A stretch of DNA of 64,000 nt, taken from Halichondria panicea (taxonomy: Eukaryota > Porifera > Demospongiae > Suberitida > Halichondriidae). How positions within the stretch are numbered: position 1 is the first letter of the stretch; the number at the start of each line of letters is the position of its first letter. Positions 5,885 to 54,900 of this stretch are shown piece by piece. A program made the translations under genes and the position numbers. The stretch spans positions 5,028,169 to 5,092,168 of the forward strand of contig NC_087386.1 of assembly GCF_963675165.1 (NCBI RefSeq), read 5' to 3'. The notes beneath the pieces are model-generated. The model had not been told where the DNA came from and ran no database searches. It saw nothing but the letters and a program-made list of their open reading frames with translations.

Positions 5885-8800
5885 ATGGGCAAGTGTCGTT
5901 GTCCCTCAAGCTACACCATTCCAGCCTACATCTGGGCCTTTCTATCCATAGCAGCTGCTATCCTCTGCCCCATTGGATTATACTTTCCCAACTGGCTAGT
6001 CCGTGAGAGAAGTGGAACATTCGATACAGTCTCATCATTTAGAGTGTGCCTCAATGAGACCTCACCAATCTCAGTTGAGTGCTCATCCTACCTGAACTTT
6101 GATCAGATATTCTCCCCAGAATGGAAGGCCGTCACACTGCTCATGGGAGCTGGAGGTTGCTTTCTTGTGCTGGTTGCCCTCACAGCCATATTTGGGTTCT
6201 GTGTTCGACAACTATTCAATTCGGTCGTCATGATCTTATCTCTTATCTTCCAAGCTCTAGGAAGTGAGTTAATCATCACCTGAGTGTATGTTTGCATATG
6301 ACTGTCTGTATTTGCATTGCTGTAACTAGGGAGTCTGTATTTGCATTGCTGTAACTAGGGAGTCTGTAATGATACATGTATCATGCATGATACACCTAAT
6401 GCACATGTGCTGGTGTGTGTTCTTCTTAAAGTGACCCTATGGAAAACCCAAGTTCAAATAGCGTTTTCAAGAGTTTTAAAACTGTTTGTATGTTTTTATG
6501 AAGCCCAACACAATTATGCTGTGTTTTGTAAACAATTTTGTTTTGTCGTATAACTGCACGGTTCTTTATAAGTACTGATAGTACGCACTGTTTATAGATT
6601 CCAAAGCTTAACAGTATGTGTGGTTTATATAATTAACAGTATTAATTTTTGTGGACAGATTCCTTCTTAGGTTATACAAACAATCGACTGTTTAAGATTT
6701 TCAACTGGTTTAATTTGTGCTGATGGCACTTAATAGGCTGTGAACATTATGAATATTGATTACAGTCTATATTTGTGGTGATAATTAGCCCACAGGGTGA
6801 ATAAGCACGGTGGATGTGAGCCATAAATGCAAAGCTATGGAGATTGAATAGTCTCGTCTGAGACCAGTATAATTTGTCTAAGCAGCATCATGTATACTTC
6901 TCCTATACATGTATGACTGTGGTATTAGTAGCTGCTGTTGTTCGTTTTAGCTAGACATTTTGTTTTTGTTTTTCAGTAGACAGAGTGCCTATAGTAGATT
7001 CATGAATGGGGGAGGTGTGTGCACTTGATTTAAACCTTTGGTCTCCAGCACATGAATTCTGTTGTAAATGAGTAAATATACGCAACTCTAACCACACACT
7101 GATGCCAATTCTCACGTGTAGGCTAACGACTAGACACCACTGAACAGTATGTTGGGACTTGCAAAATGTATCAAGCTGGGCCATAATTATAAGTGTGACC
7201 TGCTTTAGAGTTGCTATGGAGTCTAGTACTCCTTCCTGCTTGAAAGCAAAATAATATCTTAGTAGTTAGAGTAGTTGGTTAGCGGTGAGTCATGAGGTAT
7301 TAACAGCATAGAGTTGGTGTGTAGGATGAGAGTGTTTTGGAATCTTATCCTAACTGTCAATGTTAAGTTTTCAATTGGTCAAAGATAAATTATTTAATGC
7401 ATGCTACTCTGGAAAATTTGAAGAATGGGGGGATCGCCAATGGTTTTCTAACTGTCAAGTACTTAATTTGAACTTGTATTTTATAATAACACAAGGTGGT
7501 TTACGATATCTATTTAACAACTCAATAGGCAATTAGCGTTGAGTGTGGTATAGACATTCTGTTCTAAGCATGCTTACTCTACTACATGTATATCCACTCA
7601 TGCAGATCACATAATTTGCGCAGAATGTGGTTATATGCCAATTACGGAGAAGCTATAATTAATTCCAGGTAGTCAACCGTGTGAACACTAACTTGTCCTT
7701 GTCTAGTACTAAATGTCTGCCAAATATGCTACAGGCCGTGTACGTTAATGGTAGAGTATCAATTTGTCATTCTTAACTGAGGCGGTTGATTGTCATGTCT
7801 ACAGAAATCCATTAAGCCTTCGTGCCAGACGTTCCTTGTCAACATCAGAATTTACCATGGTAGTGACGACTCAAAAATATGGTGTGAAGATAATTATGAA
7901 GATTAGGTTTTAGTTTCATACACAGTAGAGTGTGGTTGAACAAACTCGTATAATTGGTATAAGGAGTATTATCTACCCAACTTATTCTTGCGATTGTGAA
8001 GGCACTTTCCTACACTCACACCGTACAAATCCCCGCTGACAATATTTGCCCAGTGGTTGCCATGGTGTCTCAATGCTATGAACAATAGGCAGTGTTGTCC
8101 CTAGCTGTTAAGGCCTCGTGGTTGGTTTTGACCATCCCTAATGTGTACTGGCTAGGCCCATTCATGCAGTGTACGTGTGATTTCACAGTTTCTAAATGCA
8201 GCTCTTGTGTGTGGGTGGTTGTGTGCAGTGATTTGTTTGTACTTCTCCGAGTCCCTAGTCAAAATAACGTGTTTAACTGTTTGGGTTAAGTAATAGAGTA
8301 GTCCTATTGGGAATATTTTTGTTATGCATATGCGTTCAATGGGTCGTGAAGCTGTTACCATAACAGCTAGAGAATAACTCCTATTGCTCCTACTAACTCC
8401 TATATTGCAGAAGTCTTGATTTTGGCCATTACCCTCAGATGACATGCACACAACACATTGTTTGCATACTTGTGGTGAAATGACTTCCCATAGATGTGGC
8501 AATAGCCTGGAAACCATTACTCACTGCCCCCTTTTCCTTTTCACACCAACCCAGTGGTACAGAGAAGTTTTATTGTTAGGTTAGCCTCGATTCCAGGCCG
8601 CAAGGAAGGGAGAGACACTTTCCATGGACCTGGAGTCGAGGCTATTGTTAGGTAGGACTGAATTTGGGATAGTTCAATCAGAGATGGTCATTAATGTATA
8701 TGCAAGTGTACGCATTAAGTGTTTTGCAAGCATATTATTATTATGTTTATTATGGAGGCTTTTGGGAATGGTCATATTGAAAGATAACTTTCTACTCCCT

Positions 8801-9739
8801 TTAGTAAAGCACCGTAATGTTGTGAAAACATGATAGCCACATAATTATAATTTTGATTTCAAGGTACATACGTACATGTACCATACCTTATTTCACACAA
8901 CTCGTCTTAACTTCATTGAAGTATGTATTGCCCCTATGCATTGTCTGAAAATAAATAGTTTTGTACCCATGTATTTTATCCGCTATAGGTCTTACTGGCA
9001 TGTACTTGTCCCATGCATGTAGGGTACTGTCTCGTGTCTCTTTATTGAGAGCAAATTACATAGTACTAAAATGGTGATAGTTGATTGACTACCAATGTAT
9101 GGCATTTTGTTTGATGTATGAGCTATACTCCCTCACTGTATGAATACTGTTACTGGGTGTGTGGGTGGTTAGGGTGGCCTATCGTGAATAGCGAGTGTCA
9201 TGCTGCTCTCACATGATCCACTTCACAGGGATACTCCTACTAGCATTCATTGCTACACACCCTTTTATAATTATAGTGGCACCACATATCCCACACAATA
9301 TTTACTAATAGTCTATTGCTAATCGAATACGTAGCTTCCCCAGCCTTAGTTTCCTTGTTGATTACAAATGCTTATGATGTTGTTATTTCAAGGCCAAATG
9401 TTCACGAGCTTAGTGTAAGTACTAATAGCCTTACCATGTATGCCTAATTACGACTGACTTTGTACAATTAACTACTTTTCTCTCTCTCACACACACACAG
9501 CAATCCTCTTCATTATCAGTCTGATCCTATTTCCTGCTGGACTGTATGTTCCTCAAACCAGTGAGCTTTGCGGACTAACCACCTCCCGATTCAACATTGG
9601 TGAATGTAGCATAGGCTGGGCCTACATCATTACCATAGTGGGCACTTTTCTCGCCCTTGTTGCCACGGCAATGTCCTGGACAACATATCGACGGAAAAAC
9701 AAAGATGATGAAGATGATGATAGAGACCCTTACCTATAA
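5885..9739 (+). CDS. LHFPL-family tetraspan membrane protein
   Basis: Two exons, 5885-6263 and 9501-9739, join in phase into 205 residues, the usual size of LHFPL (lipoma HMGIC fusion partner-like) proteins. Four hydrophobic segments are visible: near the N-terminus (IWAFLSIAAAILCPIGLYF), mid-protein (LLMGAGGCFLVLVALTAIF), across the exon junction (ALGTILFIISLILFPAGLYV) and C-terminal (GWAYIITIVGTFLALVATA). The family signature after the third segment is clear: CG-x-T-x(4)-IGECSIGWAYI. The tail is charged (KNKDDEDDDRDPYL). Family members act as tetraspan partners of channels and receptors; which partner applies here is unknown. The 3.2-kb intron is unusually long for this window. It contains a 29-bp tandem duplication (about 6303-6367) and a 63-bp mini-transposon (8582-8644); I saw no other gene in it. 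Confidence 0.88.
6303..6367. repeat. Two-copy 29-bp tandem repeat in LHFPL intron
   Basis: The unit AGTCTGTATTTGCATTGCTG plus nine further bases is repeated head to tail essentially without change, just after the first LHFPL exon. Confidence 0.8.
8573..8653. mobile_element. 63-bp miniature element with 9-bp target duplication
   Basis: The element 8582-8644 starts TAGCCTCGATTCCAGG and ends CCTGGAGTCGAGGCTA, and is flanked by a perfect direct repeat TTGTTAGGT (8573-8581 and 8645-8653). It has the same end motif as the larger element at 29124-29682, which also has a 9-bp duplication. Confidence 0.85.
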
Positions 9740-10276: not shown

Positions 10277-11853
10277 CTATTTAGTCTTTCTAAGAGCTGC
10301 TGCTCTACTTGAACACTTCTTGCCCTGCAAGGACTCGTACTGTGCAGTGAATGACACGTGCCTTTTCGATAATTCCTTAGCCTCAGTGTGAGTGGTGTAG
10401 CCTGGCTCATCAAACAGCTGATCAGTGGATCGTTTTATGGCAGAGCGTTTTGTTCCGTACTTAGGATCATCAAAAAGGCAATCCATATCGTAGATGTCTA
10501 CCTTGGAGAGAGAACTTGACCTCTGGGGTTTGAAGGGTTCGTCATACATAGGGTCTAGCTTCTCAAAACTGCGGCCAGTAGTACTGTGGGAACGGCTCAG
10601 ATTATCGGTGGACCTTTCAAAGTTGCAAGCGCTCGTAGCAGTGTTATGTTGTAACTGTACTTGGTCGTACTCCCAGTGAGGCTTTTGCGAATCAAGAATT
10701 TGGTAGAGATTATCTTTGTTTGTGAGTCGTTCAATTGGTTTACCCACAGGCACTAATCTGTGCACTCTAGTCGTGCTATAATATTTTTCATCATTCAAAT
10801 GTTCAGTGGTGTCCTCTTGAACAACAGCATCTTGGTTGTCCATTGCAGTAGCCAGTACATTGTATCGACCTTGAGAGGTATTCTCAGTCTGTTCAGCACT
10901 CACTGTATCTGCCACCTCTTCATAGAAATGCTCATGAGATTGAGCGGTGCGAGTTAATTGCATTTTTGCCTCTCCTAAAACGTTACCACTTCTGATAGTT
11001 GGTTGCTGACTGTGTCCCTCTTCATCAGGTTCGTTTGGATCGCACAAGATGTAATATCGAGGGTCACCGTCAGCAGGAACACTAACTGTCTGTTGCTTCA
11101 CCTCCGTTGCACCCAGTATGTCATCATACTTTGGCTCATCTACTTGAAGGATTTCTTTCTGTGATTCAGTCATTTGTATTTCTTCATACGAGGGTACTTT
11201 CTTCAGTTTTGAAGGCTGTGGGCATTTGACGAGAGTATCTGTTGCTATGGTATTGACTAGGTCATGGGTAGTACTGTGAACAAACATAGTTGTGTTCTGC
11301 TCCGTAGAGATACTTGTCATTTGCTCATGGATTTTCGGTAATGGATGCGATACTGGTACTACTTGCTGTTCAATTGCAATTGTTTCCATGTCTGTGTAAT
11401 TTTTCTTGAGCTCGACCTCTTCTCTGTAGCTAACCTTCTCTGTACTCAAAGCAGAGGTGATGAGCTCTTGCTGGTTCAGCTGTCCTGTTGCCAGGTTTAT
11501 TGGGACAGTCACATTTTGAGCATCCAACCTGCATAAGTATACCATAGAAACCATGCCGACATATATAATTGTAATTGTAAAAGCATAATAATTATTAATG
11601 GAAGACATACTCTGGGTGTTCGTTGCTTTCATTTGAGAGATTTGCAGAAGCTGGGAAATTAAATGCATGAATTAAAATCAATATAAACTATAGTAATTGA
11701 CATTAATTACATACCTTTCCTTCTCTTCCTTCTCTTATGAACACATATCCCTGTACAGCACACAATTCCGATGCATAGAAGCAAAACTAGTACAACGCTT
11801 GGAACTCCAAAGCACACAAAGTAGTTAATCACAGTTGTCATGCAATAACCCAT
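10277..11853 (-). CDS. Gene A: short-ectodomain transmembrane protein with tyrosine-motif tail (adaptor-like)
   Basis: Three exons join in phase: 11715-11853 (139 nt), 11611-11650 (40 nt) and 10277-11528, giving about 476 residues. Residues 1-12 would be outside the cell; then one hydrophobic segment (YFVCFGVPSVVLVLLLCIGI), a cysteine cluster VCCTGICVHKRRKRRK suited to palmitoylation and stop-transfer, then about 420 cytoplasmic residues. The tail holds many tyrosine motifs: YEEI, YDDI, YYIL, YEEV, RYNVL, LYQIL-x8-YDQV, MYDEP, FDDPKYG, YESL. There is no kinase, SH2 or other known domain. Architecture resembles vertebrate transmembrane adaptors (LAT, PAG, LIME) but I see no clear sequence homology to them. 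The tail is paralogous to genes B, B' and C. Function as an SH2-docking scaffold is inferred. Confidence 0.78.
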
Positions 11854-12248
11854 CTGAACAGTGATCTAGTACAGTAAGAGAAGCACATATTTGCATGATG
11901 AGTGCACAAATGAAGCTAATAAAACTGACTTACTTGTTGAGGTTGCAGGGGAATGGTATATAGGTGAAGCTAGATATCAGATCAAACTAGGTTTATGATG
12001 AGCTCCAGCTTTTAAAAGACTATATAATTATGAGTGAAATCTGTTACACTGCATGCATGGGAGCATCATATTGTATCTAGCTATCAGCATTCATCTGCTG
12101 TGTTGTTGCATTGGGACATTAACAGAAGGGAAAATACTTATTGTCTATCACTTCTGAATACAAAATAAGGCCATACAATGTCTCTAACTTATAGTAACAA
12201 CACACAATAAACTAAAGGGTATCACACAGCACACAAATGGTAAATTCC
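11854..12248. other. Intergenic stretch between genes A and B
   Basis: Holds the presumed promoter and 5' UTR of A and the 3' end of B. A donor-like site follows an AG-rich string near 11930, so a non-coding 5' exon of A may start upstream. No open reading frame of note. Confidence 0.4.
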
Positions 12249-13649
12249 TTATTTGGTTTTTCGCATTGCCGCTTTGCTTTCTTGTTTCCCCGGTGAATGT
12301 GCAGTCAACGAGGCACCTCTCACAGGACATTCAGTAGAAAAAGTTCGATCAGTGTGATCCTTCGATACATACTTTGGATCATCGAAGAGTGAGTCGACAT
12401 TGTAAATATCTAGCTGTGGTGTTGACCTCTGCTCCTCTTTGAAGGGCTCGTCATACATCGGATCCAATTTCTCCAGACTGTGACTATAAGAACGAACCAG
12501 ATTATCCTCAGCCCCTCCCTTAGGATTAGTGGTCCAGCTCGCGAAGGTGTTATGCCTTGGCTGTACCTGATTGCAGCTGTAGTTTGATTGAGATACTGGC
12601 TCTTCAAGAGCTTGATAAAGAGCATCATTGTTACGTTGATTGATCGGTTTGCCCACAGGGACTAATCTGTGCACCCTTGTTATGCTGTAATACTTGTCTT
12701 CGTTAATATTTTCAGCAGTATCCTCTTGTACGACAGCATCTTGAAAAGGGTTGATGTCTGTTGCCGTAGTCAGCACATTGTACCGACCGTGAGTGGGAGT
12801 ATTCGGTATCTTGCTATCATCAGTTACTTTCGTCAATTCTTCATATTCATGGTTGCTCTCAGAAATCCCTTTTATATTTTTTTGCTCCTGCTCAGACTTG
12901 TTTGTAATGATTTGCTGAGAATGCATTGTCTGCTCGAGTGTGGCCAAATCCTCATAATTAGGTTCAATTTCTTTTGCAATTTGCTTCTTCGTTTCCTTCT
13001 CTCTTACTAATTTGTCGTAATTGTTCCTTTCTTTCCACAGTTTTGGCGCTTGTATAGAGCTGCTATCAAAAGTCAGGCTTTTAGCAATGTTCGGGTTATG
13101 CCGAGGCGTAGTAGAGACGCTAGATACATGCTCGTGGCTTCGTGCTAACGGAAATATAGGCATTTGACGTTCTGATGCAGCATGTTGACTGAAATCTTGT
13201 GGTTTTGATTTTTTTGTGACAACTTGCTGACAATTGGTGTTCATTTCAACAGACGAGGATATACTTTGGGGCATGGCTGTTTCTTGCTGTCCGTTTATTT
13301 GTCCAGTTGCCAAATCTATGGGGCTGCTTCTTTCTTGTGTTTCTAATCTGCGCAATAAAGAAATAAAATAATCTTAAATTACAACATCTTTTTTTACCCT
13401 GATTGATCATTTCTTGGTTCTGTAGAATAAAAAACAGCCATTTAACTCATCATTATATAGAGAAGATAAAAGAAACTCACTTTTATTTTTCCTTCTTCTT
13501 TTGTGAATGCATCCAACGCAGCATGCAACCATACAAAGGAACAGAAGAGCAGTTCCTAGTAAAGGAGCTCCAACGCACACAAGATAGTCAACTGTTACTT
13601 CATCCATGGTACACTTTTTAAGGGTGTTGATACAGGTGCAGTTAAACAT
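12249..13649 (-). CDS. Gene B: short-ectodomain transmembrane protein with tyrosine-motif tail (adaptor-like)
   Basis: Exons 13481-13649 (169 nt), a 22-nt microexon 13398-13419 and 12249-13347 join in phase into about 429 residues. The N-terminus begins MFNCTCINTLKKC (one N-glycosylation site, NCT), followed by one membrane segment (YLVCVGAPLLGTALLFLCMV), a cysteine cluster ACCVGC and the basic stop HKRRRKNK. The tail carries NYDKL, NYEDL, EYEEL, RYNVL, KYYSI, LYQAL, MYDEP and FDDPKY, sharing with gene A the module from YNVL through TRVHRLVPVGKPI to the YQxL site. Without the microexon the frame would break, which supports it. A start at the second Met (13607) is possible. Probable membrane scaffold for SH2 proteins, by inference. 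A near-identical copy lies at 51491-52889. Confidence 0.8.
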
Positions 13650-13919
13650 GATAACTCGGGGAGACTAGCAAGTAAATGAATGACTAACTAACTAGGTTAG
13701 CTAGAGCACTATAGACCAAGAATTGATTTTGTGATTTTGGTGCATGCATGCATGTTCTCTTGGGACAAAATAGATTATGACAACAGACACATTATGGACA
13801 GAAGTCTATATGCATATACATGAACGCACTAGAATCTAGTCTAGTACAAGCAGCATGCATGAATACATGATTATGATCACACACAATCAGGTTTAAATAA
13901 TAACATTTGTTTTTAACGG

Positions 13920-14140
13920 TATACTACACATGCATGTACATACTATTGTAGTTTACTTTCGTTATGTCAATTGCCTCGTACGACTGTGATTCAATTCTTG
14001 ACTGGGGTAGTATAGGTCAGGTTTGTTACTTGAGATAAAGATGGCAGAGACTGAGTGCATGGTAGTGATCCTCAAATGGTACACCATCACTAATTGTTCC
14101 GCTTATTGTAGCAGCTGCTTTATTATTTAAATGTGTTGTT
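13920..14140 (-). pseudogene. D4: decayed D-type tyrosine tail
   Basis: Minus-strand reading shows the conserved order of the D tail (AAATI, SDG, then a decayed S-S-Q-x, then QSYEAIDITKVNYNSM) but with stops and frame changes. The duplicate at about 53150-53380 carries the same lesions, so the decay predates the segmental duplication. Confidence 0.65.
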
Positions 14141-14679
14141 CGGGATTGAGTATTGTACACTCGCCACGCCAAGTATCCATGGCAACACAAACCCACCACA
14201 CACACAATTCCTACTAATTGACTAATTAAGCTTTGATCTGCTCTAAATTACAGCCGTAAAAATGAATCTTTGAAAATGCAGCTAATGAGATTGGAGCCGT
14301 GGTATAGAACAAACAAAACACAAAACAGTGAAGGTATACTCAATTTTTGCTTTATAAACCATGGAATAGAGAAGAAGAGCAAATGCTATAGGAAAGGAAA
14401 ACTATACAATGCATACAAGCTTTTTCTTCCCACATGCGAGAGTTGAAACAATACAGGTGCAGTTAAACATGATATTCAGCGACTATAATAATAGCAACTA
14501 CATTGACTACTAATTATATTGACTGCTTTAGTCTATATAGACCCAAACAATGTTGTTTGGTGCATGTTCTTGGGACAAAAAAGATTATGACAACATAATT
14601 ATTGACAAAAGTCTATACATAATTATACACATAAAAAAACACTGAATTAAGTCTAGTATACTAGAATGCAATCAAGTTT

Positions 14680-14850
14680 TTCATTCGGCCTAATGTAGTT
14701 CACTTTCATTTTGTCAAGTGCCTCCTTTACAATTGTGATTCTTTCTTGGCTGGCCATGCATGGAGTAGTTAGGTTGTTTCTTGAGATGATTGGCAGAGAG
14801 AGTATATATATATAGTGGATCCTCTACTGCACTTAGATGTTCCGTTTTGT
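14680..14850 (-). pseudogene. D5: further decayed D-type tail
   Basis: Weak but ordered similarity on the minus strand to the D4 and D1 tails (start near the AATGTAGTTCACTTTC string, then the CTTTCTTGGCTGG part, then the GAGATGATTGGCAGAGAG part). No open frame. A copy is present at about 53930-54070. Confidence 0.5.
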
Positions 14851-15243
14851 TCATCCCACTAACGAACAATTGTTGTTTGGCTTCTACTGCTGTGTTTCAT
14901 TTCAATGCTGCTCAATAGACCACACTCATTGTATGAGTGCTTCTGTTCACATGCTACCAAGCATTAGAACTGTGTGAAGATCGCATTGTAGCAGCATACA
15001 ATGGAAAGGGAGAGACAAGCAATTGTCATCAAAAATAGACTAGTCATGCATCTTAACTATTATACGGAACAATTGATATCTCGTCAGGGACTAGATCTAG
15101 CAAACGAACGACTAACTAACTAGGTTGGATCATAATTATAGTGCTATATATATACTCGAGAATTTGAAGTTGCAAATACATTATTGACAGAATTAAGTCT
15201 ACATAGAATCTAGTATAGTACTAGCATGAACATGATTACACAA

Positions 15244-15558
15244 TCAAGTTTTGTTTTTAAGTTCATTCGATACACTATACACACTAATGTAGTCAACTCT
15301 CGTTATGTCAAGTGCCTCGTACGATTGTGATTCCTTCTTGGCAGGAGTTGTAGTCAGATTTGCTCCTTGAGATGAATTTGGCAGAGAGTAGTAAGAATCC
15401 TCTACTGATCCACCATCACTTGGATGTTCTTCTAATGTAGCAGCTGCTTTATAAGCATTGAAAAACTCACTTTTCTTTTTCTTTTTCCTTTGCATATAAC
15501 ATTTTATGCACCTAAAGCAGCAGCATGCAATCATAAAATAGAAAAGACTTAATTCTAC
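15244..15558 (-). CDS. D1: tyrosine-tail membrane protein, 5' truncated
   Basis: Open frame ending NELKNKT at 15244. From the N-side: hydrophobic LSLFYFMIACCCFRCIKC, a basic QRKKKKK, then EEHPSDGGSVEDSYYSLP, a Q-G-A-N-L-T-T-T stretch, and SYEALDITRVDYISVYSV. The YEAL-x6-YISV spacing is one residue type short of a textbook ITAM (V instead of L/I at the last position). Compared with D3 (59.3 kb) the intron before the tail has lost its acceptor, leaving an in-frame exonised remnant. At about 15558 the frame runs into the inverted edge of a COLGALT fragment, so the normal start is missing. It may be a relic. Confidence 0.5.
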   Translation of the reverse strand, partial: VELSLFYFMIACCCFRCIKCYMQRKKKKKSEFFNAYKAAATLEEHPSDGGSVEDSYYSLPNSSQGANLTTTPAKKESQSYEALDITRVDYISVYSVSNELKNKT

Positions 15559-15775: not shown

Positions 15776-15978
15776 TCTGGAGATATACAGTCTATTATTA
15801 TACGCAATGTCCAGTATCTCGTTAGATAATATTCCAATCTTTGCTTACAAGTAGACTAGTTCAGTGCAACGTACACCATAAATAAGGCACACCTTATTTC
15901 CTTAAACTATAACCATGCAAGTTTGGATTGTCCAACTTACAACAAATTGTTGTATATAGAGATGCATTTCATGATACA

Positions 15979-16488
15979 GGGGATGGGTCTTCTTCACTGG
16001 GCTTGTGACCGTGGCAACCTGAACATGGTGAAACTACTTGTGAAGAGGGGAGCAGATGTTAATATTCAGGACACAGACAATCAGCAGACACCTCTTCATT
16101 ATGGTGAGAGATGGAGTATTCTTTTACAGAGGGTGCTTGTGTGTTAATACATGTTGAAGCTAGCTGTCTGTTTGTAGATCTTTGTTTGAGTCCACTGATG
16201 CTCCCTCTACTGAATAGTGAGGGAAGTCAGTTTGGCTGTGTATCTATATGGTAACCTGTGAGATCTTTTTGTATTTGCATTAAGGTTCATCAAATTTTCT
16301 AATTTTGAATTGCTTGATTTTCGTGATTGATTGATTGTATTTCCTCTACAGCTGTGTCATGTGATCATCATGCTGTCATCTCTTATCTACTGCAAGTGGC
16401 CAAAGCAAGAACAGACATTGCAGATTGTGATGGCAACCTACCTCAAGATGTGACTGAGAATCAAGCAACTAGACAATTAACTTTTTAA
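15979..16488 (+). pseudogene. ACBD6-like C-terminal ankyrin exons (unit 0)
   Basis: Two exons join in phase: one from about 15980 (GMGLLHWACDRGNLNMVKLL) to the donor after LHY near 16102, and one after an acceptor near 16351 (AVSCDHHAVISYLLQVAKAR) to TAA at 16486-16488. The ankyrin pair and its DCDGNLPQDVTE end match the C-terminus of acyl-CoA-binding domain protein ACBD6. No acyl-CoA-binding domain precedes it in the window, so it is taken as a 5'-truncated copy. Confidence 0.6.
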
Positions 16489-36169: not shown

Positions 36170-37170
36170 TGCTTTCGCTCAAAATATAGTTGAAGTTTAC
36201 ATTAAAGTAAGCATTTGCAATGAGACAACGAATTCCATCTTAAATGGCCTGTAGCCAAACAGTGGGAGCAAACCTTTAGTCTGTAGTCAGTGAGAATAGA
36301 AGCACAGAAAGTAGATCCATAACAAATAGACTGAAAAAATGAGTATATAATTATCTATCTATAACTGAGAAGACTAGAGCACTGAAGTGCTAACCCTCGG
36401 CTGTTTACTTGAATGCATGGAAGCTGGCTAAGTAGCAAGTAACATGAGCAATGAAAGTCCATCGTTCCTGGTACAGGATCACTTCAGCTCTAAATATGTA
36501 TCTCGAAAAAGGACACACGTAGCTACCTAGAGGCCAAAGTGCAAGTTTAAGCTTCTTAGCTTTTGCTTGCTTTTATATGACAATTAATGAAGCTTTAATT
36601 AACATCGAAATCTGTCGAAAATAATAACTTAATTGTTGTGTGATAAACGCAGTGCTATGGCATCCATCCAGGTGAGCATACTCATAAATTACAAACAGAC
36701 AATCTCAACAACAAACCAACAGACTACTATACCCACTGGCCTCGGCACGGCCTCAGGTAAAAAGACTTGCATTTATTGTATATAATTATCATTGTAGTGT
36801 TTTGTGGTTTACCGGGACCAAGAAAATTGAATCTGGGGTTCAAAATGGATTGTCTCACATGTGGGATAAGCGCGCACGCGCATTACATACACAGGACTAA
36901 GGGTGTGTCTGCAAGATGTCAAGTTCACAAATGGCTTTACTGAATAGCTACCTGCTTTAACAGATCTTTTGTATAGCAAACAAAAAAGTGCTTTAGTGCA
37001 AGGCTTACACATAACTATGTTGAATAGAAAGTTTGTGCGAACAAAGTATGCTTCTGAAGAGACTGCAATTAACAGCCTTCACTGTGAGTCAAATCCAAAA
37101 GAACGTGGCTAGAAGCTGTTAGTTTTCGTCACATTGCAACTGTTCAGCAGTTACAGCTGGAACAGACAAG
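36170..37170. repeat. Repeat mosaic: split 840-bp repeat enclosing an ANKEF1-intron-derived block
   Basis: 36170-36310 and 36780-37170 are diverged parts of the 840-bp repeat (CTCTCGCC...GCTTTCGCTCAAAA end and the CAGCTGTAACTGC end). Between them, 36391-36740 is a diverged inverted copy of about 4110-4445, including the orphan ATG/donor at 36657-36671. Confidence 0.7.
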
Positions 37171-37171
37171 C

Positions 37172-37466
37172 AGTAGCTATCAGTGATATCCTCGACCACA
37201 GATTCAATGATTCTGTACCATTTTACTGTTGCCATTGAATTTTTGTTACTATTACGTGGAGCATATACTTCACATGTTAAGAGAGCAGTTCCATTGTGTG
37301 ACACATGGCAGTCACTGTCGTTACCAGGTGCAGTTATATTCCAGTAACAGCATTGTTCTGTAACCAAAGTTCAATGATATTAACTACTCACAAAAATAAT
37401 TATGTTACCTAAACAATTCTGTCCCATTGAAGAGGGCACCAGTAGCACTAGCAGGAACAGTAACAT
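37172..37466 (-). pseudogene. Ig-receptor 5' fragment (signal peptide plus half V-set domain)
   Basis: Exon 37409-37466 encodes a signal peptide (MLLFLLVLLVPSSMGQNCL) and joins in phase 1 to the exon starting at 37357 (EQCCYWNITAPG... ALLTCEVYAP ... TVKWYR). It holds the first Ig cysteine and the core Trp. Near 37172 the frame runs into the 840-bp repeat and stops, so the second half, membrane segment and tail are lost. Paralogous to gene C and the fragment at 44230-44405. Confidence 0.75.
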
Positions 37467-39430: not shown

Positions 39431-39781
39431 AGACCAAGTAGCCACTTCAAGCAACATTGCTACTCCTGACAATAGCCATTATAAGACTAACTCTTTTATT
39501 TGCATGATTATGTATGTAGAATGTTTACTAAAGTTGTGGTCAGTGAAACCACACTAGTCAATATAATTATTTGTGTGGGCTGAAATGTTAAGCAATAAAG
39601 TGAGGGTGGATGATAAACTTATCCTGGAACTACTGTGAACAGAAGTTTCTTTAGATAGATAGTCTGTAGAAAGTTGTCATCCCAAATGAAAATTAATGTC
39701 CACCATTACAGTCTACCTTTTGCTCTCACTGTCTGTGCTGTGCACTATCAAGCAAGGTATGCACCTCCAGTTGCAATAATT

Positions 39782-43309
<3,528 letters not shown>

Positions 43310-44781: not shown

Positions 44782-46730
44782 TTAGTCAGTGTGTATCCAC
44801 ACTTCATGTACGTCTGTCAACTCATCAAAAGGGAATGCCTGAATCTGAGCAGCTTCTTTTCTGTGCTCCAGTTTATCCTCTAACACTTTCGGTGCAGTAG
44901 GGAAGATATCGTATTGTGGGTCATCGAATACTCTCTCTTTCCCTTCCTCACTTCTCGATTGATCTAAGAGCTGTTCTTGGATTTTGATGTTTTGCTTACT
45001 GGGATCATTATAATTGAGTACACCATAAGCCGGAACAGTTGTGTTTGATTTGCGTTTAGGGATAGGTGTAGTCTGTTCCGGCTCGTTTGAAGTGATGGCG
45101 ATGGTGGTACCGTTTGAAACAGCTTCCTCAAGAATATGATACTCACAGCTACCAGATGATTCATTTGCAAGTGTATTCTGTTGCTGAGCTGTCTTCACTA
45201 CGCTGCCAAGATTTTCATATTGGTTGTCTTGAGATGTTTCTTCAACTGAGTTTCCCATCAATGTCAACTTGTGTGCATGTGTTCTGCTGTAGCGATGATC
45301 TTCCATGGAGTCCTCAGCTTTAATGGTGGCCTTTTGGCCTGGATTACTAACAAGGGAATGATCAAGAACATTGTATTGATTCTGAGATGAACGGCTAGTG
45401 GAAAAGCTATCGAAAGAACTTGGTGGTTGTTTTGACAGTTTATTATCACAAACATCTTCATAATATTGTGAGCTTTCAATTTGCAGTTGCTGTTTCGTAT
45501 TGACAGCGGTTTTGTCTTTGTCTTGACTCACAGCCAAAATAATTTCATACGTGTGTGGTTCACCCTGATCTCCTTCTAGGTCAGTTGTTTGGAGGACATT
45601 GGTTTCTGCTTGATGCTCCAGCTCATTGTACTCATGCTCTACCATTTTGTCACAGTCTGTAAGTGCTCTTTTACGATCACTGGCTGGCTCTTCAGTGTGT
45701 TCAACAGGTCGTGGGTTTTCCACATCTTCGTACTGGTGGACTTTCCTTCTTTTGAGACGCACAACTTGAGCATTATATCTATCTGAGGTATGATCCATTT
45801 CAGTTTGAGCAACACTTTGTACAACTGCAATGTATAAGAGAGATAATAATTATAATTATGCAAGATACTAAAGTTCCTAGTGACAAGGATTTTGGTCAAG
45901 ATGGCCTAAGTAAATTAACAAGTTGTGGGTTCCCGCTACAAAAGGTCGTCTTACAACCACCTAGGACCACAACAATTACAACAAACAATGCTTCTATGAA
46001 GAAGCGTTACATGCATGCATCAGTGCTTCTCCTATTTCCATTCCAACCTTTTCTTCTAGTTTTCTTTCTCCAGCATATACAGATTCCAGCACAGCAGATC
46101 AGAATGACCATCAGTATGAGTGTGAATCCCGCAGCTGGTACTGTCACTCCAAGACAGGCTACAAATCCTAAGTTTGTTAATTCTAGCTTACCACGACATA
46201 GTTCTGGTTGAGTGGGTGTTGCTGGCGGAGTAGACACTGATAGTGTGGTTGATGACACAGTCTGTATTGAAGAGGTTGGTATTACTTGACAAGATGAAGA
46301 ATTGTCTACTGCGCAAACTGGACTTTGCTGATAATTATATTTGAAATAACCAGAGCTTGTATTGAAAGTAATATTCACATACGCTGATGGGATGAAGCAA
46401 AACCCGTCAGCTGAAAGTTGACACCAGTAAACACCACTGTCTGAAGAATTGACATTACGAATGATTAGTTGATATCTGTCTTCAAAGATTGAAGTGTTAG
46501 ATGCATTTTTAGTTGACGTTTTGGAATTGTCATATCTATCAGTGACATTCTCGATCACAGATTCGTTGTTTCTGTACCATTTTACTGTGTTGCCAATGAA
46601 TTGTTGCTACTGTCACGTGGAGCATATACTTCACATGTTAAGACAACAGTTCCATTGTATGACACATGGCAGTCACTATAGTTGCCGGATACTTGCTTAT
46701 ACAAGTAACAGCATAGCTCTAGAATCAATT
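44782..46730 (-). CDS. Gene C: Ig-domain membrane receptor with tyrosine-motif tail, 5' part damaged
   Basis: Tail exon 44782-45824 joins in phase to the exon ending at 46048. Readable: V-set half (LCCYLYKQVSGNYSDCH, VLTCEVYAPRDSS), then KWYRNNES ... DSGVYWCQLSADGFC, a Ser/Thr-rich stalk, membrane segment (GFVACLGVTVPAAGFTLILM to ICCAGICICW), basic RKKTRRK and about 348 tail residues. Tyrosine motifs: QYEDV, EYNEL, TYEII, QYNVL, HRYS, QYENL (Grb2-type YxN), EYHIL (ITIM-like context), AYGVL, FDDPQYDIF. Membrane segment and tail are homologous to genes A and B. Problems: a two-base insertion next to KWYR breaks the Ig frame, and the expected signal-peptide exon (near 46790-46840) has lost its ATG and five bases. 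Either a recent pseudogene, an assembly error or use of another first exon. Confidence 0.65.
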
Positions 46731-47118
46731 CAATGAATCAAATTTTGAAACTACAATAAAAATTATATTTATTTACTGGGTATCAGTTCTGTCCCATTGA
46801 GGAGGGCACTAGTAGCACTAGAACAATAACACTTTACTCGCAGCTATATAGAATATTGATTATTGACTACTATAGCTCGACTTTAAGCAGTGAAGCAGAG
46901 TTATAGCTATAATTCAGTGGCGTAAAACTAGCAATGAGGCAGAGGAGGCCCTTGCCTCCTGTACTTTTGAACTTCAAGTGTAATGTGACTCACCTCACTA
47001 GCTTTTAATAGCTCTGGCTAGCTAACTTTTGGATAACTAGTCTAGCTAACTAGATATACAGAATGAGCAGAAAATGACCTCTTCACTGTCTTGTTGATGA
47101 AGAAAAGAGAAGAAGAGC

Positions 47119-50204: not shown

Positions 50205-50420
50205 TTAAAGTTCATTCGGTACACTATACACACTAATATAGTCCACTTTCGCTATGTCAATTGCCTCGTACGACTGTGTTTTGTTTTTGGCTGGGGTAGT
50301 AGTAGTCAGGTTTGCTCCTTGAGATGAAGATGGCAGAGAGTAGTAAGGATCCTCGACTGGTCCACCATCATTTGGATGTTCCGCTAATATTGTAGCAGCT
50401 CCTTTATCTGCATGTGTAGA
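50205..50420 (-). pseudogene. D2: D-type tail exon with near-ITAM
   Basis: Open frame after an acceptor (ACATGCAG): KGAATILAEHPNDGGPVEDP, YYSLP, a QGANLTTTT stretch, then QSYEAIDIAKVDYISVYSV and PNEL stop. Exon phase (1) fits the A-type membrane exon upstream at 50957-51098 but not the middle exon at about 50560, suggesting a chimeric gene. The upstream membrane exon is frameshifted, so the gene is probably dead although this exon is clean. Confidence 0.55.
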
Positions 50421-50637
50421 TAAGCATGACATTGTATAGATAAGCTAAAACGTGCAATGCAACATGTTATGTACATTAATATTCAGGTATGTTAATGTCT
50501 TATCCTGCGAGCTTACTTCTGCAAGTTTCACACTGGAAGACATACTCTGGGTGTTCGTTGCTTTCATTTGAGAGATTTGCAGAAGCTGGGAAATGCATGA
50601 ATTAAAATCAATATAAACTATATAGTAATTGACATTA

Positions 50638-50946: not shown

Positions 50947-50956
50947 ATTACATACC

Positions 50957-51098
50957 TTTCCTTCTCTTCCTTCTCTTATGAACACATCGCTGTACAGCAC
51001 ACAATTCCGATGCATAGAAACAAAACTAGTACAACACCTGGAACTCCATAGCACACAAAGTAGTTAATCCGGTCAGTTGTCATGCAATAAGCATCCAT
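50957..51098 (-). pseudogene. A': membrane exon of a gene A copy, frameshifted
   Basis: Starts MDAYCMTTDRINYFVCYGVP, continues through the membrane helix to IGIVCCTAMCS and then stops, because two bases are missing compared with gene A at the VCCTG(I)CVHK position. Downstream tail of A is absent; only the 40-nt middle exon (about 50545-50585) and the D2 tail remain. Confidence 0.7.
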
Positions 51099-51490
51099 CT
51101 GAACAGTGATCTAGTACAGTAAGAGAAACACATAGTTGCATGATGAGTGCACAAATGAAGCTAATAAAACTGACTTACTTGTTGAGGTTGCAGGGGAATG
51201 GTATAGGTGAAGCTAGATATCAGATCAAACTATAGGTTTATGATGAGCTCCAGCTTTTGAAAGACTGTTCATGTATTTACAAGCTATATATATGAGTGAA
51301 ATCTGTTACACTGCATGCATGGGAGCATCATCATCTAGCTATGTTGTTGCATTGGGACATTAACAGAAGGGAAAATACTTATTGTCTATCACTTCTGAAT
51401 ACAAAATAAGGCCATACAATGTCTCTAACTTATAGTAACAACACACAATAAACTAAAGGGTATTCACACAGCACACAAATGGTAAATTCC

Positions 51491-52889
51491 TTATTTGGTT
51501 TTTCGCATTGCCGCTTTGCTTTCTTGTTTCCCCGGTGAATGTGCAGTCAACGAGGCACCTCTCACAGGACATTCAGTAGAAAAAGTTCGATCAGTGTGAT
51601 CCTTCGATACATACTTTGGATCATCGAAGAGTGAGTCGACATTGTAAATATCTAGCTGTGGTGTTGACCTCTGCTCCTCTTTGAAGGGCTCATCATACAT
51701 CGGATCCAATTTCTCCAGACTGTGACTATAAGAACGAACCAGATTATCCTCAGCCCCTCCCTTAGGATTGGTGGTCCAGCTCGCGAAGGTGTTATGCCTT
51801 GGCTGTACCTGATTGCAGCTGTAGTTTGATTGAGATACTGGCTCTTCAAGAGCTTGATAAAGAGCATCATTGTTACGTTGATTGATCGGTTTGCCCACAG
51901 GGACTAATCTGTGCACCCTTGTTATGCTGTAATACTTGTCTTCGTTAATATTTTCAGCAGTATCCTCTTGTACGATAGCATCTTGAAAAGGGTTGATGTC
52001 TGTTGCCGTAGTCAGCACATTGTACCGACCGTGAGTGGGAGTATTCGGTATCTTGCTATCATCAGTTACTTTCGTCAATTCTTCATATTCATGGTTGCTC
52101 TCAGAAATCCCTTTTATATTTTTTTGCTCCTGCTCAGACTTGTTTGTAATGATTTGCTGAGAATGCATTGTCTGCTCGAGTGTGGCCAAATCCTCATAAT
52201 TAGGTTCAGTTTCTTTTGCAATTTGCTTCTTCGTTTCCTTCTCTCTTACTAATTTGTCGTAATTGTTCCTTTCCTTCCACAGTTTTGGCGCTTGTATAGA
52301 GCTACTATCGAAAGTCAGGCTTTTAGCAATGTTCGGGTTATGCCGAGGCGTAGTAGAGACGCTAGATACATGCTCGTGGCTTCGTGCTAACGGAAATATA
52401 GGCATTTGACGTTCTGATGCAGCATGTTGACTGAAATCTTGTGGTTTCAATTTTTTTGTGACAACTTGCTGACAATTGGTGTTCATTTCAACAGACGAGG
52501 ATGTACTTTGGGGCACGGCTGTTTCTTGCTGGCCGTTTATCTGTCCAGTTGCCAAATCTATGAGGCTGCTTCTATCTTGTGTTTCTAATCTGCACAATAA
52601 AGAAATAAAACAATCTTAAATTACAACATCTTTTTTTACCCTGATTGATCACTTCTTGGTTCTGTAGAATAAAAAACAGTCATTTAACTCATAATTATAG
52701 AGAAGATAAAAGAAACTCACTTTTATTTTTCCTTCTTCTTTTGTGAATGCATCCAACGCAGCATGCAACCATACAAAGGAACAGAACAGCAGTTGCTAGT
52801 AAAGGAGCTCCAACGCACACAAGATAGTCAACTGTTACTTCATCCATGGTACACTTTTTAAGGGGGATGATACAGGTGCAGTTAAACAT
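51491..52889 (-). CDS. Gene B': near-identical copy of gene B
   Basis: Exons 52721-52889, microexon 52640-52661 and 51491-52589 have the same lengths and phases as gene B, giving about 429 residues. Only about a dozen residues differ (for example IIPLKKC for INTLKKC, LLATAV for LLGTAL, KLKPQ for KSKPQ). All tail tyrosine motifs are unchanged (NYDKL, NYEDL, EYEEL, RYNVL, KYYSI, LYQAL, MYDEP, FDDPKY). Both copies are intact, suggesting recent duplication or retained function. Same inferred role as gene B. Confidence 0.8.
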
Positions 52890-53149
52890 GATAACTCCAG
52901 GAGACTAGCAAGTAAATGAATGACTAACTAACCAGGTTGGCTAGAGCACTATAGACCTAGAATTGATTTTGTGGTTTTGGTGCGTGCATGCATGTTCTCT
53001 TGGGACAAAATAGATTATGACAACAGACACATTATGGACAGAAGTCTATGCATATACATGAACGCACTAGAATCTAGTCTAGTACAAGCAGCATGCATGA
53101 ATACATGATTATGATCACACACAATCAGGTTTAAATAATAACATTTGTT

Positions 53150-54070
53150 TTTAAGTTAATTCGGTACACTACACATGCATGTACATACTATTGTAGTTTA
53201 CTTTCGTTATGTCAATTGCCTCGTACGACTGTGATTCAATTCTTGACTGGGGTAGTAGGTCAGGTTTGTTACTTGAGATAAAGATGGCAGAGACTGAGTG
53301 CATGGTAGTGATCCTCAAATGGTACACCATCACTAATTGTTCCGCTTATTGTAGCAGCTGCTTTATTATTTAAATGTGTTGTTCGGGATTGAGTATTGTA
53401 CACTCGCCACGCCAAGTATCCATGGCAACACAAACCCACCACACACACAATTCCTACTAATTGACTAATTAAGCTTTGATCTGCTCTAAATTACAGCCGT
53501 AAAAATGAATCTTTGAAAATGCAGCTAATGAGATTGGAGCCGTGGTATAGAACAAACAAAACACAAAACAGTGAAGGTATACTCAATTTTTGCTTTATAA
53601 ACCATGGAATAGAGAAGAAGAGCAAAATGCTATAGGAAAGGAAAACTATACAATGCATACAAGCTTTTTCTTCCCACATGCGAGAGTTGAAACAATACAG
53701 GTGCAGTTAAACATGATATTCAGCGACTATAATAATAGCAACTACATTGACTACTAATTATATTGACTGCTTTAGTCTATATAGACCCAAATAATGTTGT
53801 TTGGTGCATGTTCTTGGGACAAAAAAGATTATGACAACATAATTATTGACAAAAGTCTATACATAATTATACACATTAAAAAACACTGAATTAAGTCTAG
53901 TACTAGAATGCAATCAAGATTTTCATTGGGCCTAATGTAGTTCACTTTCATTTTGTCAAGTGCCTCCTATACAATTGTGATTCTTTCTTGGCTGGCCATG
54001 CATGGAGTAGTTAGGTTGTTTCTTGAGATGATTGGCAGAGAGTATATATATATAGTGGATCCTCTACTGC
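53150..54070 (-). pseudogene. D4' and D5': duplicate decayed D-type tails
   Basis: Copies of 13920-14140 and 14680-14850 with only a few differences, in the second copy of the segmental duplication. No open frame. Confidence 0.6.
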
Positions 54071-54395
54071 ACTTAGATGTTCCGTTTTGTTCATCCCACT
54101 AACGAACAATTGTTGTTTGGCTTCTACTTCTGTGTTTCATTTCAATGCTGCTCAATAGACCACATGCACTTATTGTATGAGTGCTTCTGTTCACATGCTA
54201 CCAAGCATTAGAACTGTGTGAAGATCGCATTGTAGCAGCATACAATGGAAAGGAAGAGACGAGCAATTGTCATCAAAAATAGACTAGTCATGCATCTTAA
54301 CTATTATACGGAACAATTGATAACTCGTCAGGGACTAGTTCTAGCAAACGAACGACTAACTAACTAGGTTGGATCATAATTATAGTGCTATATAT

Positions 54396-54900
54396 ATCAA
54401 TACTAAAAAACATTTGCAATGTGAACGTTGCTAGAATTGCCAGGAAAAGAAAAGCGCGAAAAAGCGAAGAAACAAGAAATTCGGCGAGTGCATAACTCCA
54501 ATCCGTTACAACGTCATTCGCATGTACTGTTTCAAGCAATATTTTTTTGTGCTTTTCCTGGCCAATCCTTCAGTAATTTTCATTGTTATAAGCAAGCTAT
54601 ATAATGTGTTTGTGATGTTTTCCCTTACAGTGTTGAGCAAACATGCAAGTGTTGGATGTGTAGGTGGATTATTGTGAATTCTTAGTTCTCGGTTCATTTT
54701 TTACCCAACCTGTATTTTGATTCTAAAATCATTATCAACAGTGGGCCACTCGGCTGTACATGTTCATGACGTTGTAACGGATTGGAGTTATGCACTCGCC
54801 GAATTTCTTGTTTCTTCGCTTTTTCTTTTCCTGGCAATCCTAGCAACGTTCACATTGCAAATGTTTTTTAGTATTGATTCCCTTTCTTTTTTCATTACAG
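54396..54900. mobile_element. DNA element with about 120-bp inverted ends
   Basis: ACATTTGCAATGTGAACGTT... through the GAATTCCAATCCGTTACAAC-like inner part recurs inverted at 54760-54890 (TTGTAACGGATTGGAGTTAT, GCAACGTTCACATTGCAAAT). It starts exactly where the segmental duplication is interrupted. Confidence 0.75.

Follow-up and report, generated by a model that had tools for sequence, protein, structure and literature searches.

Genes A and B lie on the minus strand of a 64,000-nucleotide stretch of the Halichondria panicea genome (contig NC_087386.1, positions 5,028,169 to 5,092,168; hereafter the window). Their helix segments and tails are kin to those of subfamily E, the long-tailed members of a tandem array of V-set receptor genes around them, and A and B are for this reason best read as family members without an ectodomain. 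With a probability that we put at about 0.6, sequence comparison points to V-set receptor relatives that lack the ectodomain and would work as LAT-like membrane scaffolds. The genome searched was the window's own (131.5 Mb, 39 contigs), and gene and receptor structures were derived from genomic sequence at the exon level.

The introns modelled for A, B and B', a copy of B, are all of the GT-AG type, and their phases are alike (1, then 2). About 11 residues precede the helix in A, and 8 or 22 in B according to the start codon, since an in-frame ATG at 13649 would add 14 residues to the B model if it is the start. Each protein has a single hydrophobic segment, with Kyte-Doolittle maxima (window of 19) of 3.06 for A and 2.56 for B. 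A Pfam scan of both tail exons and both first exons returned no family above cut-off, and a search of PDB with the A tail gave no match at E 1. The build claimed in the original prediction (few outside residues, one helix, a cysteine cluster, a basic stop, a tyrosine-rich tail and no catalytic domain) thus holds by gene models, hydropathy and Pfam. The sizes given with it were tails of about 370-420 residues, against 430 and 373 in the gene models, and 12-24 outside residues, against the values given above. AlphaFold prediction of the A tail exon yielded a mean predicted local distance difference test (pLDDT) score of 39.6, a predicted template modelling score of 0.13 and 0 residues at a pLDDT of 70 or more, which is weak evidence of disorder because the alignment held only 4 sequences.

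Tyrosines in a Yxx[LIVMP] context are in excess in both tails, with 10 of 17 in A (shuffle mean 4.1, P 0.001) and 7 of 12 in B (shuffle mean 2.8, P 0.008). This excess makes the tail tyrosines putative phosphorylation and SH2-docking sites, and the motifs CCTGIC and CCVGC are candidate palmitoylation sites. Among the contexts, YDEP fits the preference of Crk and Nck SH2 domains, and FDDPxY is reminiscent of the FDNPVY sorting and phosphotyrosine-binding motif of the LDL receptor.

The homology of A and B to subfamily E, in helix segment and tail alike, is supported by alignment and shuffle tests in which six of 14 E tail matches were used, fragments, A's own exon and weak matches having been dropped. 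The A tail aligned with an E tail at z 8.8, a score reached by 0 of 1000 shuffles, and the B tail at z 5.7 (1 of 1000). Comparison of the first exon with the E helix segment gave scores reached by 0 of 3000 shuffles for A and 1 of 3000 for B. Six columns of tyrosines line up between A, B and the E tails ([SN]YEE/YDK with EYNE; YEE[VL]/YEDV; YNVL; YS.T; LYQ.L/QYENL; DIY/AYG) in an alignment of four of the nine long tails (A, B, E0 and E5, with B' and E1 to E4 set aside), and the same six are invariant in the alignment of A, B, B' and E0, a subfamily E gene of the window. Tyrosines were kept above the column average both between A and E0 (7/13 vs 60/322, P 0.004) and between B and E0 (6/10 vs 51/293, P 0.003). 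The splice donor following the basic segment is likewise in phase 1 in A, B and E.

The array is located on contig C10 at about 5.04 to 5.16 Mb and extends about 68 kb past the window. Two types of receptor genes, long-tailed E and short-tailed C, mostly alternate along it, with broken fragments between them; the matched receptor copies are on the minus strand and two genes of distant kinship on the plus strand. An E gene is composed, in order, of a leader, a V-set, a stalk, a helix segment of the A/B type and a long tail, and a C gene of a leader, a V-set, a stalk, a different helix and a tail some 65 residues long that bears SYEAIDITKVDYISVYSV. In the array receptors, the leader is a phase-1 exon of its own, and V-set, stalk and helix occupy one exon that ends in phase 1. 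Pfam recognised a V-set in three of the three array receptors submitted (36.9, 33.7 and 27.6 bits; cut-off 26), and the E0 V-set scored 29.0 bits at C10:5074580-5074762. A genome-wide V-set search returned 112 matches, and five of the best eight were in the array.

Heads, helices and tails occur in several combinations, as seen from three members. The V-set of a short-tailed gene at L026:4539-5222, the helix of which is broken, is nearest to those of the long-tailed E3 (dS, synonymous divergence, 0.055) and E1 (dS 0.127), with values of 0.295 and 0.342 against the two other short-tailed genes compared. In member D, a helix exon like that of B is combined with a short tail, but a stop lies after the helix. 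Downstream of exon 1 of A', a copy of A, a region resembling that of the A mini-exon (50534-50637) is followed by a short tail at 50208-50399 in place of the long one. Among the short tails, nine of 16 matches were compared, the decayed, split and weak ones being excluded; VDYISV and the spacing Yxx[LI]x6YxxV were kept in eight of these nine, and the ninth is frameshifted there. We take VDYISV to be a consensus immunoreceptor tyrosine-based inhibitory motif (ITIM). A canonical immunoreceptor tyrosine-based activation motif was rejected for the short tails, as its last position is V instead of L or I. Positive selection on the V-set was rejected as well, the ratio of nonsynonymous (dN) to synonymous divergence being below 1 in 21 pairs drawn from seven V-sets with a readable frame out of 29 match rows.

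From the genomic sequence, A and B appear to lack an ectodomain. No V-set or leader match was found between them and window position 37.4 kb, that is, over 23.7 kb upstream; 395 bp separate the B stop from the A ATG, and a TAG is in frame five codons ahead of the latter. Both genes look headless on these grounds, and no acceptor is expected before their helix, since the V-set is encoded in the same exon as the helix in those E and C genes that were read. A and B could alternatively be receptors with an overlooked 5' ectodomain exon, for example across a long intron, and for this the TTCAG ahead of the A ATG offers a possible acceptor and the family receptors a precedent, their leader being a separate phase-1 exon. 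This explanation is nevertheless quite improbable in view of the in-frame TAG, the short gap, the empty upstream interval and the single exon shared by V-set and helix.

A and B are real genes, the frames of which have stayed open under constraint through saturating divergence. In 400 aligned codons, 54% of their nucleotides are identical, and their differences by codon position (172/146/231) are most numerous at the third. When random mutation of B was simulated up to the divergence observed between A and B, a mean of 16.9 stops arose and 0 of 1000 runs were free of stops. Over the 400 codons dN was 0.55 and dS 2.42, and for the C-terminal block the two were 0.33 and 2.14; the resulting dN/dS values of about 0.15-0.23 are rough because dS is saturated.

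Decay could account for the missing heads in another way, with A and B as functionless remnants of former receptors. Decay is widespread in the array: A', D, C1, C3 and the E0 ectodomain are broken, as are several V-set fragments, and the E1 and E3 tails end early. B and B' display no clear constraint since their duplication. Remnants are nonetheless a decidedly unlikely account of A and B, as the splice sites of both are intact, their frames are open past saturating divergence at the above dN/dS, and their tyrosine motifs are conserved. Copy B' had been cited beside A and B in the original prediction; it is indeed intact, but it is not independent, as it is part of a 3.45-kb segmental duplication (11706-15153 and 50947-54397, 96.4% identical), and it was rejected as independent evidence for the family.

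Under the reading we prefer, A and B would keep the Cys-bearing helix segment and the long tyrosine tail of the family without its ligand-binding head, and their products would reside in the plasma membrane. Upon engagement of sibling receptors, Src- or Syk-type kinases would phosphorylate tyrosines of the A and B tails, and the phosphorylated proteins would assemble SH2 proteins that also dock on receptor tails. They may thereby act as LAT-like scaffolds, or compete for the same kinases and adaptors. Expression, phosphorylation and palmitoylation of A and B, the direction of signalling, and a history in which the ectodomain was lost and not gained are what we infer in this scheme.

Candidate readers of such tails are encoded in the genome, where 74 exon-level SH2 matches were found at E 0.01 or better; four SH2 regions, which contain a minority of these matches, were read. 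One locus comprises a pair of SH2 exons together with a kinase exon, and its second SH2 exon has SYK as the best PDB match (2.1e-39), followed by ZAP-70; the best match outside the SYK/ZAP-70 family is Grb7 at 5.1e-18. Another locus is SHP-2-like (4.1e-58) and has a phosphatase exon of 48.7 bits. Syk-family kinases have been reported in sponges, in the part of a study that concerns an alignment from sponges to primates with Amphimedon as outgroup (PMC9601881).

The same readers would also suit decoys or brakes, that is, headless tails absorbing kinases and Csk-like or SHP-type enzymes in a manner closer to PAG than to LAT. The tyrosine columns common to A, B and the receptor tails, the SHP-2-like gene, and the SYEEI of A, which resembles the optimum of Src-family SH2 domains, are all in line with decoys, but no ITIM consensus was found by eye among the tyrosine contexts listed for A and B. 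We hold such a role to be highly improbable.

Several observations weigh against scaffolds derived from the V-set family. The A tail as genome query returned A, B, B' and a weak match on C16, and no E copy at E 10; B exon 1 matched the A exon and no E helix; and an E tail reached A only at E 0.001. As the link is weaker in such single-sequence searches, the case for kinship rests on the combination of the shuffle tests, the tyrosine columns, the splice phase and the location. The FDDPxY motif, shared though it is, fails to align between B and E, and it was rejected as an aligned site of the three, since the alignment pairs A's second copy of the motif (FDEPGY) with E and leaves B out. Conservation of tyrosines from A to B (10/15 vs 149/358, P 0.04) is marginal if taken alone. 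B and B' differ by 10 nonsynonymous and seven synonymous codon changes, and mismatches amount to 18/1248 in their coding sequence against 35/2028 in the rest of the duplication (P 0.57). A slower evolution of B coding sequence relative to its flanks was rejected on this figure; the coding sequence is no less diverged than the rest, so that the pair gives no sign of constraint since the duplication. At the Syk-like locus, the first SH2 exon taken alone has a slightly better match to SHP-2 than to ZAP-70, and the kinase exon piece, at 20.2 bits, stays under the cut-off of 23.1. Palmitoylation and SH2 binding of A and B are readings of motifs only, and a 5' exon of a kind other than V-set may be present in these genes.

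The original prediction saw in A and B a family of LAT-like adaptors, either independent or very old, which in its strict form would have no kinship with receptors. The layout is in fact that of LAT and PAG; like A and B, the vertebrate proteins LAT, PAG, LIME and NTAL have a single helix after a short outside stretch, cysteines next to the membrane and a basic stop; their long tail is rich in SH2-type tyrosines, and they lack a catalytic domain. The missing ectodomain, the wide divergence of A from B with frames still open, and the A tail query devoid of E copies would also suit a separate family. Helix segment and tail are, however, homologous to those of the V-set-bearing E genes of the same array, so that a separate family is unsupported and we regard it as unlikely. 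Homologues with an upstream ectodomain, named beforehand as contrary to the claim, were found at exon level among the relatives (signal peptide, V-set and stalk in E) but not for A and B themselves.

A and B further differ from LAT and PAG in that no match to the profiles of these two families passed the cut-off. The best scores genome-wide were 17.4 bits for LAT (PF15234) and 16.1 bits for PAG (PF15347) at a cut-off of 27, in profile searches that can miss weak matches; these two matches, one for each profile, are on C12 and C13, away from the A/B locus, and both families were absent from the Pfam scan results of A and B. Orthology of A and B to LAT or PAG was rejected accordingly. The term LAT-like stands for the build and, as a best guess, for an adaptor-type function, and does not extend to sequence kinship.

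Homology of the A, B and E tails to tyrosine-rich exons near unlinked V-set receptor genes on C6 (L035, C6:5552000-5556500) and C2 (L036, C2:6364500-6369500) was also considered, and was not used because the results were mixed. Of 1000 shuffles, the score against the C6 exon was reached by 458 for A, 492 for B, nine for E0 and 43 for E5, and that against the C2 exon by 14, 872, 0 and 37, respectively. By strand order, the C6 exon is part of the gene that lies upstream of the V-set exon there. One of the two exons carries LFDDPRY, which is close to the form FDDP[KQ]Y found in A, B and E, and LFDDPxY is the sole feature clearly shared with them. The coordinates of the features of the window are collected in Table 1.

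Table 1. Coordinates, in window numbering, of genes A and B, their copies and members of the V-set receptor array
Feature	Position	Strand	Remarks
Gene A	exons 11853-11715, 11650-11611, 11528-10277	minus	476 aa, genomic gene model
A exon 1	11715..11853	minus	ATG, about 11 outside residues, helix, VCCTGIC, VHKRRKRRK; donor phase 1
A mini-exon	11611..11650	minus	40 nt, phases 1 and 2; position and phases as in the 22-nt mini-exon of B
A tail exon	10277..11528	minus	with mini-exon, 430-residue tail with 17 Tyr
Gene B	exons 13607-13481, 13419-13398, 13347-12249	minus	415 aa, genomic gene model
B exon 1	13481..13607	minus	helix, ACCVGC, IHKRRRKNK
B mini-exon	13398..13419	minus	22 nt
B tail exon	12249..13347	minus	with mini-exon, 373-residue tail with 12 Tyr
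B'	exons 52847-52721, 52661-52640, 52589-51491	minus	415 aa, intact copy of B inside the segmental duplication
A' exon 1	50955..51098	minus	frameshifted, dead; inside the duplication
E0 long tyrosine tail (subfamily E)	44782..45824	minus	347 aa, open
E0 V-set/stalk/helix exon and signal-peptide remnant	46048..46830	minus	V-set frameshifted, leader damaged
V-set gene fragment (leader and first V-set half)	37119..37466	minus	V-set match nearest to A/B upstream
Short tail exon C1 (YEALDITRVDYISVYSV)	15247..15450	minus	own helix exon degraded
Short tail exon C3	59335..59514	minus	upstream helix exon with no in-frame ATG ahead of the helix
Decayed short tail	13906..14121	minus	three stops; duplicate at 53181-53364

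Other genes were noted in the array and its surroundings. A plus-strand gene at window positions 39659-43309, inside the V-set array, encodes a tyrosine-kinase domain that is split and, besides a helix and tyrosines in the tail, an ectodomain not recognised by Pfam, and is probably a receptor tyrosine kinase; one of its kinase exons scored 62.7 bits, and a later piece 21.9, under the cut-off of 23.1. Two plus-strand genes at L029:57-741 and 7586-8478 have a helix 42% identical to that of the short-tailed receptors and a short-tail-like tail with KYEAIDVTKTDY[VM]QMYT; no ectodomain was recognised in them. At L021:1363-2082 (plus strand), a small protein that has one helix and the motifs PPPSYNEV and LPSYTEV matched B exon 1 weakly (E 0.11). 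The window also contains an LHFPL-like tetraspan exon at 9458-9736 on the plus strand (PF10242, 51.6 bits) and, from 15.6 to 36 kb, many tandem and inverted repeats, of which at least one unit bears an ankyrin-repeat exon (PF00023, 42.1 bits, 15860-16147). Further V-set clusters are situated at C10:1.635-1.93 Mb, C9:2.457-2.475 Mb, C4:5.66-5.72 Mb and C6:2.57-2.62 Mb; three regions of such clusters were retrieved and open reading frames were read in two, and one sampled region, L037, contained Ig-like exons, a helix and several tyrosines in the tail.

The V-set domain as such is no novelty, since sponges are known to have V-set genes in great abundance. For Dysidea avara, 564 such genes are given in a table and 594 in the text of a study seen in excerpt (PMC12909245). 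The sponge excerpts deal with domain counts or adhesion proteins, and tandem genes uniting V-set and tyrosine tail, or headless siblings, are not described in them. Sponge members of the immunoglobulin superfamily (IgSF) also include a Geodia receptor kinase and adhesion molecules. In a comparison of the array V-set profile with PDB, MXRA8 (3.4e-6) and NCAM2 ranked ahead of 8qpx, titled 'Receptor tyrosine kinase (Fragment)', and 8ovq, titled 'Cell recognition molecule' (both at E ~0.003); the latter two entries are presumably Geodia proteins. Among the open-access matches listed, no title or abstract opening was recognised as dealing with sponge tyrosine-tailed V-set arrays or LAT-like adaptors, and no sponge receptor was described with paired tyrosines that Syk-family kinases read.

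Two known receptor systems invite comparison. As in vertebrate KIR and PIR paired receptors, similar V-sets are found on genes with different tails, and by analogy heads, helices and tails of the array may have been recombined as in paired-receptor families; the array differs in its division into short tails with what we take to be an ITIM consensus and long tails with many non-ITIM tyrosines. The Alr complex of Hydractinia, with 41 IgSF genes, is likewise a non-vertebrate IgSF cluster, and V-sets and ITIM or hemITAM motifs are described for it in excerpts of two papers (PMC11999971, PMC12065747). These excerpts do not mention headless siblings that share the tail, and the phylum is a different one if the present genome is that of a sponge.

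It is possible, if doubtful, that V-set receptors with mostly alternating long and short tails, accompanied by headless siblings that supply this docking tail as a LAT-like scaffold encoded in cis, and read by a Syk-type kinase and an SHP-2-type phosphatase, represent an immune-type locus of a very early lineage of animals, in which the LAT principle would have arisen through shedding of the head and independently of vertebrates. If expressed, the array would provide concrete candidates for early-animal Syk targets, namely long docking tails and V-set receptors that have YEAI-x6-YISV in the tail. As headless genes, A and B would mark a route from a receptor family to a membrane scaffold, and loss of the head may explain how LAT-like proteins come to have no sequence relatives.

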